Origin: Pseudobdellovibrio exovorus JSS
GTDB taxonomy: Bacteria; Bdellovibrionota; Bdellovibrionia; Bdellovibrionales; Bdellovibrionaceae
Assembly (NCBI RefSeq): GCF_000348725.1
Contig: NC_020813.1
Location: 1,774,248 to 1,838,247 of the forward strand
DNA: 64,000 nt
Direction of reading: 5' to 3'
Each line of letters begins with the position of its first letter. The first letter of the stretch is position 1. Both the position numbers and the translations under genes were made by a program. The notes under the pieces were generated by a model, which saw nothing but the letters and a program-made list of their open reading frames with translations, was not told where the DNA came from and did not search any database. This document shows, piece after piece, positions 42,751 through 53,000 of this stretch.

Positions 42751-45700
42751 TTAATTCAAAACTGAAACTTCAGCAAAGCTTCCCACTACGACCGTGATAT
42801 CGGAACTGTTCACGGCACTTGCGGCTCGCAGTACAACTGTTCCATTAGAACTTGGAACAACAACCGCTTCGACTGTCGCCATATAAACATCACCTGCCGT
42901 CGGAGTTGCCGATGAAGCGACAACATTGCCTGAAGATGTTATGTGTCCAACATAAGTCGCATTCACTCCGTCCACTTCCACTGGGATTTTTGCAACAGCC
43001 GTGGCCGCTGATACCGATGGATAAACTAAACTTAAACGCAGACCCGTGCTGATGTCAGCAGATGTATACAGAATCGTGTAGCGAATTTTATAAACGCTTC
43101 CGCTAGTGACAGCAACTGTCAACCCCGTTACATCAGATAAAGCTGTTGAAGAAAATACTTGTCCTGATGTCTTCTTTACATAACTCGGTAGCTCTGATTT
43201 TTGCACAACGGATGCTGGTAAACGTCCACCTGCCACCAACTGTACCAATTCACTAGCGGCTGTTCCTGCATCCAATACTGCCGCAGTTCCAAGACCTGAA
43301 ATATCGGTATTCGATAAAGTGACATCTCCGGTGCGCCCCGCCACTGTGGTCACTGGAGCCGTTGGGAAGTTGATAGATTGGCAAGCAAAAGTGTCTGTTA
43401 GACTATTCCAATACAGTGTTTCTGTTGTTGTACAACTTGCTGATGCGAAATAGGCATTAAATGTCGACGATTGAAGAGCACCTGTAATACGAGAATCATT
43501 ACCCGCAGCCACTGTACCGGCAGCCGTTCCCACATTCATGGTGGCCGCAGCACCTAAACCTAAATTCGTACGAGCCGTAGAAGCGGTGGCGGTCAATTCA
43601 CTTAAGTTATTGGCTGGGGCCAGTGGTGTATAACCTAAGGCCGCCTGCTTTGAGTTAAATGTATTCCAATCTGTCGAGCTTAAATATCCCGAAGTTGTCG
43701 TGTTTGCCTGTGAAATAGAAAGCTCTGGCGTCGCTCCACCAGACGATGCCAACGGCGCAACAGCCGTCACTTGTGTCACTGTTCCTGCATTCGGAGATGT
43801 CCATGACAAAACTCCGCTGCCATTCGTTGTTAATACTTGTCCGTTACCACCAGCACTCGTCGGTAATGTTAAATTGTAATCTTCAAATGTTCCCGCGGTA
43901 GGTGCACGTACCTGAATGCGATTAGTCCCATTTGTATCTTGAACGTTGAAATGTAATGAGGAAATGTTACTGCTATTAACTGTTGGAGCTATCAGTGTTG
44001 AAATGGTCACTTGGCCACTGCTATCCCGCTTCACTAATGTCGATGCCGTGCTATCACTTGTGGCTGCGGCTACCGTGTCCACGGTTCCAGCAAGAGTCGT
44101 CGCTGTTTTTCCACCCACTGCATTTACAGTAAGATTCGTAAATGTTCCAGATACATCACCGCCAGCATTGCTTGTTGTCAGCAAAGCGGCTGTTGGCAAT
44201 AGCGCCACTGGAATTCGAGAGTTGGCATCTAACTGCACTAAATTAGTAGCTGCGGTCCCTGCATTCAAAGTGGCCGCACTTCCTAAACCCAAATTCGTAC
44301 GAGCTGTAGAAGCAGTAGCGGTCAATTCACTTAAGTTATTGGCTGGGTCTAATGGCGCATACCCCAATGCACTTTGTTTCGAATTAAATGTATTCCAATC
44401 TGTCGAACTTAAATATCCAGAGGTTGTCGTGTTCGCCTGTGAAATCGAAATTTCTGGTGTCGCTCCACCAGAAGATACCAACGGCGCAGCAGCCGTCACT
44501 TGCGTCACAGTCCCCACTGTTGGTGTCGTCCACGAAAGAACACCACTGCCATTCGTTGTTAATACTTGCCCGTTACCACCAGCACCGGTTGGTAATGTTA
44601 AATTGTAATCTGAAAATGTTCCTGCCGCTGGAGCTCGCAGCTGAATATGATTCGCGTCATCACTGCCACGTATATTCACATTCAAAGCTCTAACATTAGT
44701 GGCTGCCACTGTCGTACTAGCAACACTAGAAGCATTCAATGCCGTCACACTGACCTGACCACTGCTATCACGCTTCACCAGAGTCGATACCGTATTGTCA
44801 CTTGTCGCCGCAGTTGTTGCATCCACACTAGTCGCAATAGCAGCTGCAGTTTTTGCACCGACACTGTCCACTGTTAAATTCGAAAGCGTCCCCGAGATGT
44901 CTCCACCTGCAGTGCTGCTATTTAGCAAAACAGAATTAGGCAATAGCGCCACTGGAATTTTAGCTCCAGCATCTAATTGCACTAGATTCGAAGCGGCTGT
45001 GCCAGCATTTAAAGTAGCGGCAGTTCCAAGACCTGAAATATCGGTATTCGATAATGTTACGTCTCCGGTGCGTCCGGCTACAGTGGTCACTGGAGCCGTT
45101 GGAAAATCAATGCTTTGACACAGGAAGGTTCCCGTCACACTACTCCAGTACATTGTTTCCGTAGTTTCACAACTTGCTGAGGCCACATAACCATTAAATG
45201 TCGACGACTGAAGAGCACCTGTAATACGAGAATCATTACCCGCGGACACTGTGCCCGCGGCTGTTCCCACATTCATTGTGGCCGCAGCACCTAAACCTAA
45301 ATTCGTACGAGCCGTAGAAGCGGTGGCAGTCAATTCACTTAAATTATTGGCTGGGTCCAAAGGTACATAACCAAGGGCTCCTTGTTTCGAATTAAATGTG
45401 TTCCAATCTGTTGAACTCAAATATCCAGAAGTTGTCGTGTTCGCCTGTGCCATCGAAATTTCTGGCGTTGCTCCACCAGACGATGCTAACGGCGCAACAG
45501 CCGTCACTTGTGTCACCGTTCCCACTGTCGGAGATGTCCATGACAAGACACCACTGCCATTCGTCGTTAAGACCTGTCCATTGGCGCCGGCACTTGTTGG
45601 TAAGGTCAGACTGTAATTCACAAACGGAGTTGGAGCCTGCAACGTCACACTGTTATTATTAGCATTGAACACCGACAACGTACGAACAGAAGCTGCTGTC

Positions 45701-47616
45701 GTTTGCACAGCCGCAGATTGTAGTGTTTGCACGCTGATGTCACCGCTGCCATCACGCTGAACTAATGTGTTTGCTGTATTCGCCGCCGTAGCTGCAGAAA
45801 CTGTATCTACAGCTCCTGCTACTGCGGTCGCGGCTTTCCCACCCACTGTGTCCACAGACAGAGTTGAAAATGTTCCCGAGACATCACCGCTAGCTGTACT
45901 GCTGCTGAGCAAAACAGAATTAGGCAATAGCGCCACTGGTATTTTAGCCCCAGCATCTAATTGCACCACATTGGATGCTGCCACACCTGCATTCAAAGTC
46001 GCTGCACTTCCTAAACCTAAATTCGTACGAGCTGTAGACGCTGTCGCCGATAACTCACTTAAATTATTTGCTGGATCAAGTGGTGTATAACCTAAGGCCG
46101 CCTGCTTTAAGTTAAATGTATTCCAATCCGTTGAACTCAAATATCCCGAGGTTGTTGTATTCGCTTGGGAAATAGAAATCTGTGGAGTCGTTCCGCCTGA
46201 AGAGGATAACGGCGTCGTAGCCGTCACTTGCGTTACCGTACCACCAGTCGGAGAACTCCATGTCAAAACACCAGATCCATCAGTAGTGAGCACTTGTCCA
46301 CTTGTTCCTGCATCCACAGGCAACGTCAGGCCATAATCGGAAAAAGCCGCTGGCGATTGCACAGTCACTTTGTTGTTGTTCGCATTAAATACGGCCAGCG
46401 TACGTACAGAAGCCGCTGTCGTTTGTACAGCAGCAGACTGTAGTGACTGAACACTAATATCACCACTGCCATCGCGCTGAACTAATGTGTTTGCTGTATT
46501 CGCCGCCGTAGCCGCAGAAACTGTGTCGACAGCTCCTGCCACTGCGGTCGCGGTTTTCCCACCTACTGTGTCCACAGTGAGATTTGAAAAAGTTCCTGAG
46601 ATGTCTCCACCTGCGGTGCTGCTATTTAACAAAACAGAATTGGGCAGAAGAGCCACAGGAATCTTAGCTCCGCCATCTAATTGTACTAGATTCGAAGCCG
46701 CGGTACCCGCATCCAATGTTGCAGCAGTTCCAAGACCTGAAATATCGGTATGAGCTAAAACTACATCTCCAGTTCGACCCGCAACACTTGTTACTGGCGC
46801 GCCAGGAAGTGTAAAAGGCACCCACTCACTGCCGTCATAACGCAAGACCTGATGTAAACTCGGCGCCGAAGTACTGACTGTCACACCTCTAATTCTAGCC
46901 ACCGTAGTGGACGACTGTGTGCCCGTCACATCCCCTGCTAAACTGCCTGTAAAGTTTTGCGCGGTAGTCGCTGACGTGGCTTCACCCAGTTCAGCTAAAC
47001 GTAACAAATTGGTTAAGCGCGTAGAGTCTTGTAATAATAAATTTAGATTTCCTTGAGTCAGTTGTGTTCCCGCAGTTCGCGACAACAGATCTTCCGATTT
47101 TTTTCCGCCGATAGACTCAGCCTGCATCGCAAATGGAACTGCACGCATATTGAAGTTCACTAAAAGAGTTTCATGATTAATTTCGGCAACAATACGCAAG
47201 ACACGATGACTCGATGAGGTCGGCGTATAGCTTTGCTCGCTGGAAACGATATTATTATTTCCATCAACACAAAATAAACTCGCCTTGGCAGAGGAGTTAT
47301 CAAATACTTGTTGCAGTGTTAAATTGGGATCACGTGAACCGCGTGATCCACTTCCTAAATTTAAAGAGATATTACCATTGGTTATATCTCGACCACTGTA
47401 GTTTTCTTCACGCAGAATACAATTTCCACCCGCTCCGCCAGGAGGAGATAAAACTAATAACTTAAAGTTGACACCTGACTCTGTAGGATAAAATCCTGTC
47501 GGTGACTTGACTCTTAACTGAACCGGCACTCCAATTTCTGCTTTTGTAATGGCAGCACTCACTAATATCGAAAAAATAATAACGATCTTCATCCAGAACT
47601 GATGACTGTTATTCAT
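42751..47616 (-). CDS. Giant repeat fibre, phage-tail-fibre-like (mosaic adhesive trimer type)
   Basis: 1621 residues. The start at 47616 is set by GAGGTG inside the end of the lipoprotein gene; MKIV eight codons later begins the signal peptide (IVIIFSILVSAAITKA). A head domain of about 180 residues is followed by tail-fibre-like modules. VAGRTGDV and ISGLGTAA recur at about 294, 862 and 1441. LSSTDWNTFN with ALGY and LSEL recurs at about 499, 739, 1075 and 1318. QVLTTNGSGVL-type blocks recur between them. The last 145 residues (after LPSYVKK) form a distinct beta-rich tip. Such layouts make trimeric fibres; Bdellovibrio bacteriovorus is known to use mosaic adhesive trimer fibres to meet prey. 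Binding target unknown. Confidence 0.85.
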   Translation of the reverse strand: MNNSHQFWMKIVIIFSILVSAAITKAEIGVPVQLRVKSPTGFYPTESGVNFKLLVLSPPGGAGGNCILREENYSGRDITNGNISLNLGSGSRGSRDPNLTLQQVFDNSSAKASLFCVDGNNNIVSSEQSYTPTSSSHRVLRIVAEINHETLLVNFNMRAVPFAMQAESIGGKKSEDLLSRTAGTQLTQGNLNLLLQDSTRLTNLLRLAELGEATSATTAQNFTGSLAGDVTGTQSSTTVARIRGVTVSTSAPSLHQVLRYDGSEWVPFTLPGAPVTSVAGRTGDVVLAHTDISGLGTAATLDAGTAASNLVQLDGGAKIPVALLPNSVLLNSSTAGGDISGTFSNLTVDTVGGKTATAVAGAVDTVSAATAANTANTLVQRDGSGDISVQSLQSAAVQTTAASVRTLAVFNANNNKVTVQSPAAFSDYGLTLPVDAGTSGQVLTTDGSGVLTWSSPTGGTVTQVTATTPLSSSGGTTPQISISQANTTTSGYLSSTDWNTFNLKQAALGYTPLDPANNLSELSATASTARTNLGLGSAATLNAGVAASNVVQLDAGAKIPVALLPNSVLLSSSTASGDVSGTFSTLSVDTVGGKAATAVAGAVDTVSAATAANTANTLVQRDGSGDISVQTLQSAAVQTTAASVRTLSVFNANNNSVTLQAPTPFVNYSLTLPTSAGANGQVLTTNGSGVLSWTSPTVGTVTQVTAVAPLASSGGATPEISMAQANTTTSGYLSSTDWNTFNSKQGALGYVPLDPANNLSELTATASTARTNLGLGAAATMNVGTAAGTVSAGNDSRITGALQSSTFNGYVASASCETTETMYWSSVTGTFLCQSIDFPTAPVTTVAGRTGDVTLSNTDISGLGTAATLNAGTAASNLVQLDAGAKIPVALLPNSVLLNSSTAGGDISGTLSNLTVDSVGAKTAAAIATSVDATTAATSDNTVSTLVKRDSSGQVSVTALNASSVASTTVAATNVRALNVNIRGSDDANHIQLRAPAAGTFSDYNLTLPTGAGGNGQVLTTNGSGVLSWTTPTVGTVTQVTAAAPLVSSGGATPEISISQANTTTSGYLSSTDWNTFNSKQSALGYAPLDPANNLSELTATASTARTNLGLGSAATLNAGTAATNLVQLDANSRIPVALLPTAALLTTSNAGGDVSGTFTNLTVNAVGGKTATTLAGTVDTVAAATSDSTASTLVKRDSSGQVTISTLIAPTVNSSNISSLHFNVQDTNGTNRIQVRAPTAGTFEDYNLTLPTSAGGNGQVLTTNGSGVLSWTSPNAGTVTQVTAVAPLASSGGATPELSISQANTTTSGYLSSTDWNTFNSKQAALGYTPLAPANNLSELTATASTARTNLGLGAAATMNVGTAAGTVAAGNDSRITGALQSSTFNAYFASASCTTTETLYWNSLTDTFACQSINFPTAPVTTVAGRTGDVTLSNTDISGLGTAAVLDAGTAASELVQLVAGGRLPASVVQKSELPSYVKKTSGQVFSSTALSDVTGLTVAVTSGSVYKIRYTILYTSADISTGLRLSLVYPSVSAATAVAKIPVEVDGVNATYVGHITSSGNVVASSATPTAGDVYMATVEAVVVPSSNGTVVLRAASAVNSSDITVVVGSFAEVSVLN
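43291..46741. repeat. Nested in-frame DNA repeats inside the fibre gene
   Basis: The marker AAGACCTGAA (plus strand) recurs at 43291, 45028 and 46732, giving large periods of 1737 and 1704 bases. A second marker, GTATTCCAAT (GTGTTCCAAT in one copy), recurs at 43661, 44390, 45398 and 46118, with spacings of 729, 1008 and 720 bases. All spacings are multiples of three. The units are near-identical over long stretches, so homologous recombination could change fibre length, and short-read assembly could collapse them. Confidence 0.85.
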
Positions 47617-47872
47617 ATTTCACCTCAACATGCCAACCATCTGGTAACACCACTTCTTCTACTGCATCAGCACTGTCATAGGTTACAGTCCACCCATTTT
47701 CTGAAACTACAGTCTGCGCATATTTAAAATTATTATCACCAGATTGATCAATCGGAGCCACGGGACGCGGAGGAGTCATATTCTCTTCTGTTGAATCCTT
47801 TGCCGGACTACAGCTAGTGCCATAGACAGCAAATACAAGAGCTAAAATAAGTACACGTGTGCGTCCGTTCAA
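47609..47872 (-). CDS. Small lipoprotein coupled to the fibre gene
   Basis: 87 residues. The hydrophobic leader LILALVFAVYGTSC ends at a lipobox-like Cys (C21), though the -3 position is Gly rather than the usual Leu. A Pro-rich linker (NMTPPRPVAPIDQSG) precedes a short beta domain (GWTVTYDSADAVEEVVLP, ending GWHVEVKYE). The stop overlaps the fibre start as ATGAATAA, and the fibre ribosome site lies within its final codons, so the two are obligately co-translated. A lipid-anchored partner could hold or cap the fibre base in the envelope; this is inference. Upstream, GGTGCGCACC at 47944-47953 is a perfect 10-bp palindrome in the promoter region. Confidence 0.75.
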   Translation of the reverse strand: MNGRTRVLILALVFAVYGTSCSPAKDSTEENMTPPRPVAPIDQSGDNNFKYAQTVVSENGWTVTYDSADAVEEVVLPDGWHVEVKYE

Positions 47873-47943
47873 CTTTTCTCCTTCATGGATAGGGAATACC
47901 CCTAAAGACTGTATCGGTATGATACGTAGAAAAATTAAGACTA

Positions 47944-51306: not shown

Positions 51307-52842
51307 CTATTGGCACCAAGGTGCTTGAGGCATGATTTGGCAGATGATTTGGCACATTGCCTCGTCTCCGAATGGACAGTCACCGCCGCCACCTGGAGGA
51401 TTTCCTGGTTCACCAGGGTTAGAGCCACCGCTGCTTGTGCCAACGTTGAAATCTAAAGATTGAGCTACAGCACCAGTAGAGTCAGTAGCTTTGATTGTTG
51501 CAGTACCATTAGCAACAGCTTTTACTAAACCCGTAGCATCAACAGTTACGATAGCAGGGTTTGAAGATTCAAACTGAACTGCACCCACTGCATTTTTCAT
51601 AACTACTTGTTGAGTTGCATCTACAGCTAAAGTTGTTGCTGTAGGAACTAACCATGCTTTTTTAGATAATAAAGTATCCACAGCAGCAAAAGCGTCTACA
51701 CGGCAGTTACAAGCTGTTTCGATTTGAACTTTAGTACCTGTAGTTTGCATCAATGCTTTAACTTCTGGGCCAGTCAATGCAGGGTCTTGAGCTTTTAAGA
51801 AAGCTACTAAACCAGCAACAAGTGGAGTCGCCATAGAAGTACCAGACATGTTCGAGTATTTGTCACCTGGAACAGTTGACATAATCGCATCACCAGGAGC
51901 TGATACGTGAACTTTTGCTTTACCGTAGTTTGACCAAGATGGTTTTGTATCTGATGAGTTTGAAGCCGCTACTGTGATCACGTTAGATACAGGAGCATTT
52001 GCAGGGTAAACATCAGTACGATCATTGTTTTTACCATCGTTAGCTGCTGCTGTTACAAAGATAATACCAGCTTTTTCAGCTCTTTCGATTGCTTCAACAA
52101 GTGGACGTGCATTCGCAGGAGACACAGAAGCACCCCAGCTTGCAGAAATAACGTGAACACCATGTTCGATAGCGTAATCGATTGATTTAATACCGCCTTC
52201 TAAGCTTCCAGAACCATCAGCGCCTAAGAATCTAAGAGGCATCATTGATACTTCAGGAGACAAACCTACGATACCACCTTCAACAACACCAGTAGCACCT
52301 ACGATACCAGCACAGTGAGTACCATGACCTGGGTTTTGTGCAGATGTTTGATCCATTGGATCAGAATCGTTATCACGGAAGTCATAACCAGCAACCATAT
52401 TTGGAGCTAAGTTTTTATGACGGTAATCAACACCAGTGTCGATAACAGCTAATAGAACACTTCTGTTACCACGATTACCAGCGCGCTCCCATGCTTTAAC
52501 TGCGTTAACTTTAGCAAGAGCATATTGCTCTCTTAAGTTTTCGCCATCAACAGGGGCTTCAAAAGCTCTGATCGTTACGTTTTCTACAACGTACTCAACA
52601 TTTGGATCTGCTTGGATAGATGCCAAAGTTCTTGCTTCATGTTTTTTGTTTTTAATAGCAACAGTTACAAAGCTACCCGCTTCATGCAGGCTCTTCATTT
52701 GAAGTCCTGTAGACTCAGTTTGCATTGCTGCCATTTTATTAAGTGCTTGTTTGTTTTTGTACTTAACGATGTATTCAGCTCCGAATGATGATTGAGCTAC
52801 CAATACTAACGCCAACGACAAAACTACATTGGTCAGTTTCAT
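51307..52842 (-). CDS. Secreted subtilisin-like serine protease with Ig-like tail
   Basis: The ATG at 52842 is chosen: GGAAGG stands seven bases ahead, and the signal peptide (LTNVVLSLALVLVAQSSFGA) begins there. 511 residues. An I9-type propeptide (about 22-95) is followed by the S8 catalytic domain with D135 (VIDTGVDY), H173 (PGHGTHCAG), an oxyanion-hole Asn in the AAANDG block and S336 (GTSMATP). A BIG2-type Ig domain follows (VGAVQFESSNPAIVTVDATG). The protein ends in a Gly/Pro-rich spacer and a Cys-rich tail (CPFGDEAMCQIICQIM). It is exported and probably degrades prey or environmental protein. The tail may be disulfide-stabilised or involved in attachment. Complete catalytic triad. Confidence 0.93.
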   Translation of the reverse strand: MKLTNVVLSLALVLVAQSSFGAEYIVKYKNKQALNKMAAMQTESTGLQMKSLHEAGSFVTVAIKNKKHEARTLASIQADPNVEYVVENVTIRAFEAPVDGENLREQYALAKVNAVKAWERAGNRGNRSVLLAVIDTGVDYRHKNLAPNMVAGYDFRDNDSDPMDQTSAQNPGHGTHCAGIVGATGVVEGGIVGLSPEVSMMPLRFLGADGSGSLEGGIKSIDYAIEHGVHVISASWGASVSPANARPLVEAIERAEKAGIIFVTAAANDGKNNDRTDVYPANAPVSNVITVAASNSSDTKPSWSNYGKAKVHVSAPGDAIMSTVPGDKYSNMSGTSMATPLVAGLVAFLKAQDPALTGPEVKALMQTTGTKVQIETACNCRVDAFAAVDTLLSKKAWLVPTATTLAVDATQQVVMKNAVGAVQFESSNPAIVTVDATGLVKAVANGTATIKATDSTGAVAQSLDFNVGTSSGGSNPGEPGNPPGGGGDCPFGDEAMCQIICQIMPQAPWCQ

Positions 52843-53000
52843 TTTATTTCCTTCCGTGAAATAGCTAGTTCCTACTTGGAACCATTTTAACTTTGAAAGA
52901 TCGTATCCCGACTTTTTTGGAAAATAATAGAAAAATAACAGTTTTACGCACCTAGACATTGGTTGAGGTCAACCCCAATTGGCCGAACCATACTATATAT

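Follow-up and report, generated by a model that had tools for sequence, protein, structure and literature searches.

A lipoprotein family paired with mosaic adhesive trimer genes in Pseudobdellovibrio exovorus and relatives: a candidate anchor for the fibre

The main new element of the locus described here is a family of small lipoproteins associated with genes of mosaic adhesive trimer (MAT) fibres. The family is absent from Pfam and NCBIfam, and the fibre on its own is a further member of an already known class. The lipoprotein family is widespread and, in the open-access literature searched, apparently undescribed. The locus lies in a 64,000-nucleotide stretch (the window) of the genome of P. 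exovorus JSS, a single contig of 2,657,893 bases; P. exovorus and Ca. B. qaytius have been classed together as epibiotic predators (PMC11656739). MAT fibres were described in B. bacteriovorus, with a count of 21, and their head must bind a surface element that has not yet been identified (Caulton et al., 2024; PMC10769870). We lean, without great confidence, towards the view that the lipoprotein is this element, an outer-membrane anchor binding the MAT head; binding, outer-membrane site and anchoring are inferred.

A sequence-only reading had described a 1621-residue fibre gene overlapping a lipoprotein gene by ATGAATAA, and the open reading frames were found exactly as described (Table 1). 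The same reading had set the locus beside B. bacteriovorus, which is not the source organism. Promoter and terminator scans at the locus gave nothing above chance. Some 3.4 kb upstream of the lipoprotein-fibre pair, at 51307-52959, is an S8-type protease gene; in B. qaytius (L065) a comparable protease gene immediately precedes a MAT gene, possibly by chance.

Table 1. Features of the lipoprotein-fibre locus, in window coordinates.
Feature	Position	Strand	Evidence
MAT fibre gene, 1621 aa, ATG start	42751..47616	-	ORF list and NF053851 match
Tip, residues about 1474-1621, predicted TNF/C1q-like jelly roll, lectin-like	42754..43197	-	AF2 and structure comparison
Shaft module 4, residues 1134-1440, insert common to module 2	43297..44217	-	Repeat comparison
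Shaft module 3, residues 886-1133	44218..44961	-	Repeat comparison
Shaft module 2, residues 558-885, insert common to module 4	44962..45945	-	Repeat comparison
Shaft module 1, residues 318-557	45946..46665	-	Repeat comparison
MAT N-terminal head, NF053851 match residues 15-180, AF2 beta-sandwich	47077..47574	-	NCBIfam, head profile, AF2
Fibre signal peptide, Sec-type, residues 1-26, cleavage about TKA-E	47539..47616	-	Sequence
8-base overlap ATGAATAA, lipoprotein stop and fibre start	47609..47616	-	Sequence; 8-base overlap kept in 7/7 relatives
Lipoprotein gene, 87 residues, TTG start, MAT-associated family member	47609..47872	-	ORF, orthologues in 7 relatives
C-terminal double motif KYAQTVVSENGWTVTYDSADAVEEVVLPDGWHVEVKYE	47612..47725	-	Family alignments, profile-profile match
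Fibre Shine-Dalgarno-like GAGGTG, within last lipoprotein codons	47621..47626	-	Sequence
Lipobox cysteine, residue 21, +2 residue Ser	47810..47812	-	Sequence, family alignment
Lipoprotein Shine-Dalgarno AAGGAG, 5' of TTG	47878..47883	-	Sequence

Regarding the fibre, its head (residues about 26-165) passes NCBIfam NF053851 (Bdello_MAT_N) with 82.1 bits (E 3.8e-23; curated cut-off 60 bits), and was modelled by AF2 as a beta-sandwich with pLDDT mostly 80-94 across the first 130 residues. No clear PDB relative was found for the head (best Foldseek E 0.066; VIA Z no higher than 5.7), nor did a PDB search with the whole fibre give a match. From residue 318 onwards the shaft comprises four modules in tandem, each about 240 residues long, with pairwise identities of 67-83% in amino acids and 64-74% in DNA, and the 12-mer GYLSSTDWNTFN is present in four copies across them. 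The tip, which is conserved in 5 relatives, was modelled with pLDDT about 90 over model residues 60-190, from an alignment of only six sequences and with one of five models clearly better than the others. The modelled tip resembles the lectins PLTL (VIA Z 11.6) and BC2L-C (VIA Z 11.4) as well as the Bd2734 tip 8okw (VIA Z 8.1). Because of the NF053851 match and the TNF-like tip resembling these three proteins, the window fibre is assigned to the MAT family, NS74 class with a lectin-like tip; this is shown for the head and predicted by model for the tip fold, while the trimer rests on homology, and surface display and prey binding are inferred. Neither a YadA-type membrane anchor (by Pfam) nor an S74 domain was matched in the fibre. 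As for the earlier claims, the signal peptide, the tandem modules and the distinct beta-rich tip held, the last being modelled as a TNF-like lectin fold. Membership of the mosaic adhesive trimer class also held (NF053851, head alignment and profile, TNF-like tip), head and tip having both matched when searched against known MATs, as had been suggested. The claim of a unique head failed: this region is the N-terminal domain known from MATs.

Across the genus the shaft varies while head and tip are retained. Orthologues with a readable C-terminus have 420-1279 residues, compared to 1621 in the window fibre, and length appears to change through the addition and loss of modules. The orthologues L202, L204, L205, L206 and L208 have head and tip as in the window fibre and a shaft of different length. 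The head profile, built from 32 heads, and the phylum survey found the window fibre as the sole MAT of its genome. The same profile found 21 heads in a genome which we take to be that of B. bacteriovorus HD100. A second, sister genome (3,988,594 bases) carries two fibres ending in the solved tips of Bd2734 (8okw) and Bd2740 (8oks); the remaining Bd numbers in HD100 were assigned from protein length and map position. B. qaytius (G013; L049, L065-L073), a congener of the window's source organism, has seventeen MAT heads; some are arranged in tandem clusters, and the open frames reach 3737 residues.

The window lipoprotein carries an SPase II lipobox with Cys21 after a short hydrophobic signal. 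This lipobox, GTS-C, is slightly atypical at -3, and those of the orthologues beside the same fibre in 7 relatives are canonical. The +2 residue is never Asp in 37 members, in terms of the enterobacterial outer-membrane sorting rule, which is unproven in Bdellovibrionota. The small lipoprotein claimed by the sequence-only reading consequently holds as a sequence class by its lipobox, its role as anchor or chaperone still being inference. No Pfam or NCBIfam family exceeded its curated cut-off against the window lipoprotein, and a PDB search with the lipoprotein profile yielded chance-level matches only. The signature of the family is a conserved C-terminal double motif, SGxYxVxG...SGGYxVxG, so that the family is defined by a short and divergent motif. 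In profile-profile comparison the window-type double motif matched the partners of HD100-type heads with E 4.8e-7, and other neighbouring lipoprotein groups were linked at E 5.1e-5 and 5.6e-4. Direct comparison of the most distant groups was not significant (E 0.018), and these are linked only via intermediates.

A motif resembling the double motif, GGxYxLxGTIGQPDxGxLSGGxYxLxGG, is widespread in bacteria. The orphan lipoprotein L238, from another family of the phylum (G091), ends in the tail GGSYKIKGTAGAPDGQPVLTGGSYKL, and a motif close to this tail is frequent in bacteria of other phyla. It may be that the double motif predates MAT fibres and is more widely distributed than they are. In certain lipoproteins an extra domain of 100-150 residues lies between lipobox and double motif (L104, L189, L240, L084, L257, L265), notable cases being the lipoproteins paired with Bd2872 and with Bd3182, an S74-type fibre. 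Heads starting LIPFQGRLTD (L264 in G058 beside head 2205071; L171 in G016) are preceded by a lipoprotein of another kind, about 180-200 residues long, which ends GIVYGP or GIVYAP and has no recognised double motif.

The pairing of lipoprotein and MAT genes was shown at several scales. The lipoprotein lies directly upstream of the window-type head, with the 8-base overlap, in 8/8 genomes, and it is missing upstream of a second window-type head in B. qaytius. Lack of conservation in relatives, which had been named as grounds for refuting the pair, was not observed, and on a wider scope related lipoproteins were found beside MAT genes across many genera. A search for related loci with a narrow head alignment led to seven named loci, and one with a diverse head alignment gave no conserved pattern. 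Inspection of 147 MAT loci revealed a small lipoprotein directly upstream in about a quarter, mostly with a 4- or 8-base overlap, in at least ten genera and in a second family; 36 of these lipoproteins have the C-terminal double motif in common. When the tail profile of the 36 was searched against whole genomes, it matched mostly MAT-adjacent lipoprotein genes. With a refined profile, 27 of 39 matches in nine genomes immediately preceded a MAT in the same orientation and 5 were just downstream, with a chance expectation of 0.01-0.19% per match for the upstream position; some of these genes were part of the training alignment. In genomes outside that alignment (G043, G047, G056, G058, G041) 14/19 matches with E <0.01 were upstream of a MAT, some copies there being orthologues of trained ones. 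Across the phylum, 124 sampled genomes contained MAT heads in 40 and the lipoprotein in 21, all of the latter among the MAT genomes (21/40 vs 0/84 without MAT; Fisher p 4e-13, relatedness uncorrected). The short profile had no match in 19/40 MAT genomes, the window's own among them in that run, and some family members are orphans or lie beside other genes.

In HD100 the refined profile gave seven clear matches, all beside MATs. Six lie upstream of fibres (682515, 2349903, 2463200, Bd2734, Bd2740 and Bd3182; that at 2349903 we take to be probably Bd2439 from its map position), and the seventh just downstream of the tandem MAT pair 3181823/3186599. A divergent relative of 210 residues is found near Bd2872, beyond another gene. 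In the head tree a single clade unites fourteen HD100 heads, none with an upstream lipoprotein, and the other seven have their own, six upstream and the divergent one near Bd2872; within this main clade a lipoprotein lies beside two of fourteen MATs. Over all 148 heads in the tree the lipoprotein label needs 22 changes, compared to a shuffled mean of 35. A follow-up set comprised 15 low-scoring heads, from five genomes without a profile match, and five main-clade controls. A lipoprotein was found beside 10/15 low-scoring heads (in upstream position for seven and in divergent orientation near Bd2872-like fibres for three; 9/10 with recognisable motif) and beside 0/5 controls, giving p 0.03 by the score criterion fixed beforehand. 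The five low-scoring heads without lipoprotein all carry the main-clade signature TYQGR. By this signature, recognised afterwards, the counts are 10/10 heads without it vs 0/10 with it (p 1e-5). Co-divergence of head and lipoprotein was likewise shown, their distances being correlated overall (Mantel r 0.35, p 0.0005) and in HD100 alone (r 0.67, p 0.012). No lipoprotein was found for one divergent head (G018 1091793).

Relatives of the lipoprotein at 3191199 in HD100 occur in 20/24 Bdellovibrio genomes, usually as a single copy. They often neighbour main-clade MATs, which they directly precede in G056, G042 and G045, and a conserved gene follows them in most loci read. It is possible that this type serves the entire main clade. 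It was not found in 4/24 Bdellovibrio genomes, and the idea of a shared partner is weaker because one of these, G047, with about 13 main-clade heads, is without it as far as the profile search shows. The gene after HD100 3191124-3191366 (L253) encodes a conserved secreted protein of unknown function with the signature VDVRRNITLAxDDxVYKDFYIS...GLKKNLVVTAVRK. Genes of this type were also seen at L190, L191, L241, L242, L249 and L252, and also without a MAT nearby; the system may include this protein as a third component.

In the mechanism that we propose, the two genes would give a two-part adhesive fibre. The lipoprotein would be made first, in translational coupling with the fibre, and would then pass to the outer membrane, where its C-terminal double beta motif may bind the MAT head and hold the fibre base on the predator. 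The secreted fibre, trimeric by homology, would bind a prey surface glycan through its C-terminal TNF-like tip; this ligand, like the trimer, is inferred. Head types would have their own adjacent lipoproteins, and the similar main-clade heads of B. bacteriovorus may share one. Against an anchor stands the observation that most main-clade MATs have no adjacent lipoprotein. A bolder reading is that the family is the missing anchor of the whole MAT system, in which divergent fibres have private anchors, the main clade shares one and display is set by a lock-and-key code between head and lipoprotein; we see as much reason to doubt it as to accept it.

The main rival, which we regard as unlikely, is that the lipoprotein acts in the periplasm, tethered to a membrane, as a chaperone or export pilot, concerned with fibre folding, trimerisation or outer-membrane crossing and not part of the displayed fibre. 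Such a role predicts identical pairing, co-occurrence and co-divergence; moreover, the lipoprotein is translated before the fibre, and NS74 fibres, that of the window included, are without the S74 chaperone. However, the partner of Bd3182 (L104) accompanies an S74-type fibre with its own chaperone, and recombinant full-length Bd2133, a main-clade head by map position, was purified and formed fibres without the lipoprotein. In addition, private partners track head type, fitting a binding site at the fibre base.

It is very unlikely that the lipoprotein adjoins the fibre only by accident or for regulation, with a C-terminal likeness that stems from the fibre's start codon and ribosome-binding site overlapping its gene. 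The last lipoprotein codons do encode the GAGGTG and ATG of the fibre, constraining VEVKYE, but the first half of the double motif is outside any such signal, members that do not overlap a fibre gene also have the motif (orphans, the HD100 copy at 3191199, which lies downstream of a MAT, and the Bd2740 partner at -53), and none of the MAT-free genomes in the phylum sample yielded a family member. A prophage tail part instead of a cellular adhesin is all but excluded: the shaft repeats resemble those of phage tail fibres, but a prophage origin was rejected since no phage families were matched (no PHROGs match for fibre or lipoprotein, the flanking genes being outside that scan), the neighbours are cellular, such as a dihydroorotase-like gene, with none phage-like in the ORF list, and the fibre has a signal peptide and a curated MAT domain.

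Returning to the anchor reading, a lipoprotein family that tracks MAT genes in the phylum, co-diverges with the head and is not found without MATs is a concrete candidate for what holds MATs on the predator. With one MAT and one family lipoprotein found, the window genome would offer a setting without the redundancy that hid the effects of single-gene deletions in B. bacteriovorus. The locus could also show how an epibiotic predator of narrow prey range recognises Caulobacter.

Among known systems, the MATs of B. bacteriovorus share with the window fibre a signal peptide, a beta-rich head of about 130 residues, a repetitive shaft and an exchangeable C-terminal tip, and two of them, Bd2734 and Bd2439, have TNF-like tips as well. 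They number 21, in contrast to the single copy of the window genome, and the main text of PMC10769870 mentions no lipoprotein, whereas the window MAT is accompanied by one. The glycan-binding TNF-like lectins BC2L-C (2wq4) and PLTL (9ib7) have the same jelly roll as the modelled tip, aligned over 118-119 residues at 11-14% identity; they are free lectins, while the window domain is a fibre tip. Finally, trimeric autotransporter adhesins of the YadA class are, like MATs (trimeric by homology), long surface fibres with head and shaft. Their order is reversed, the MAT head being at the cell and the tip C-terminal, and in MATs the anchor would be provided by a separate lipoprotein.
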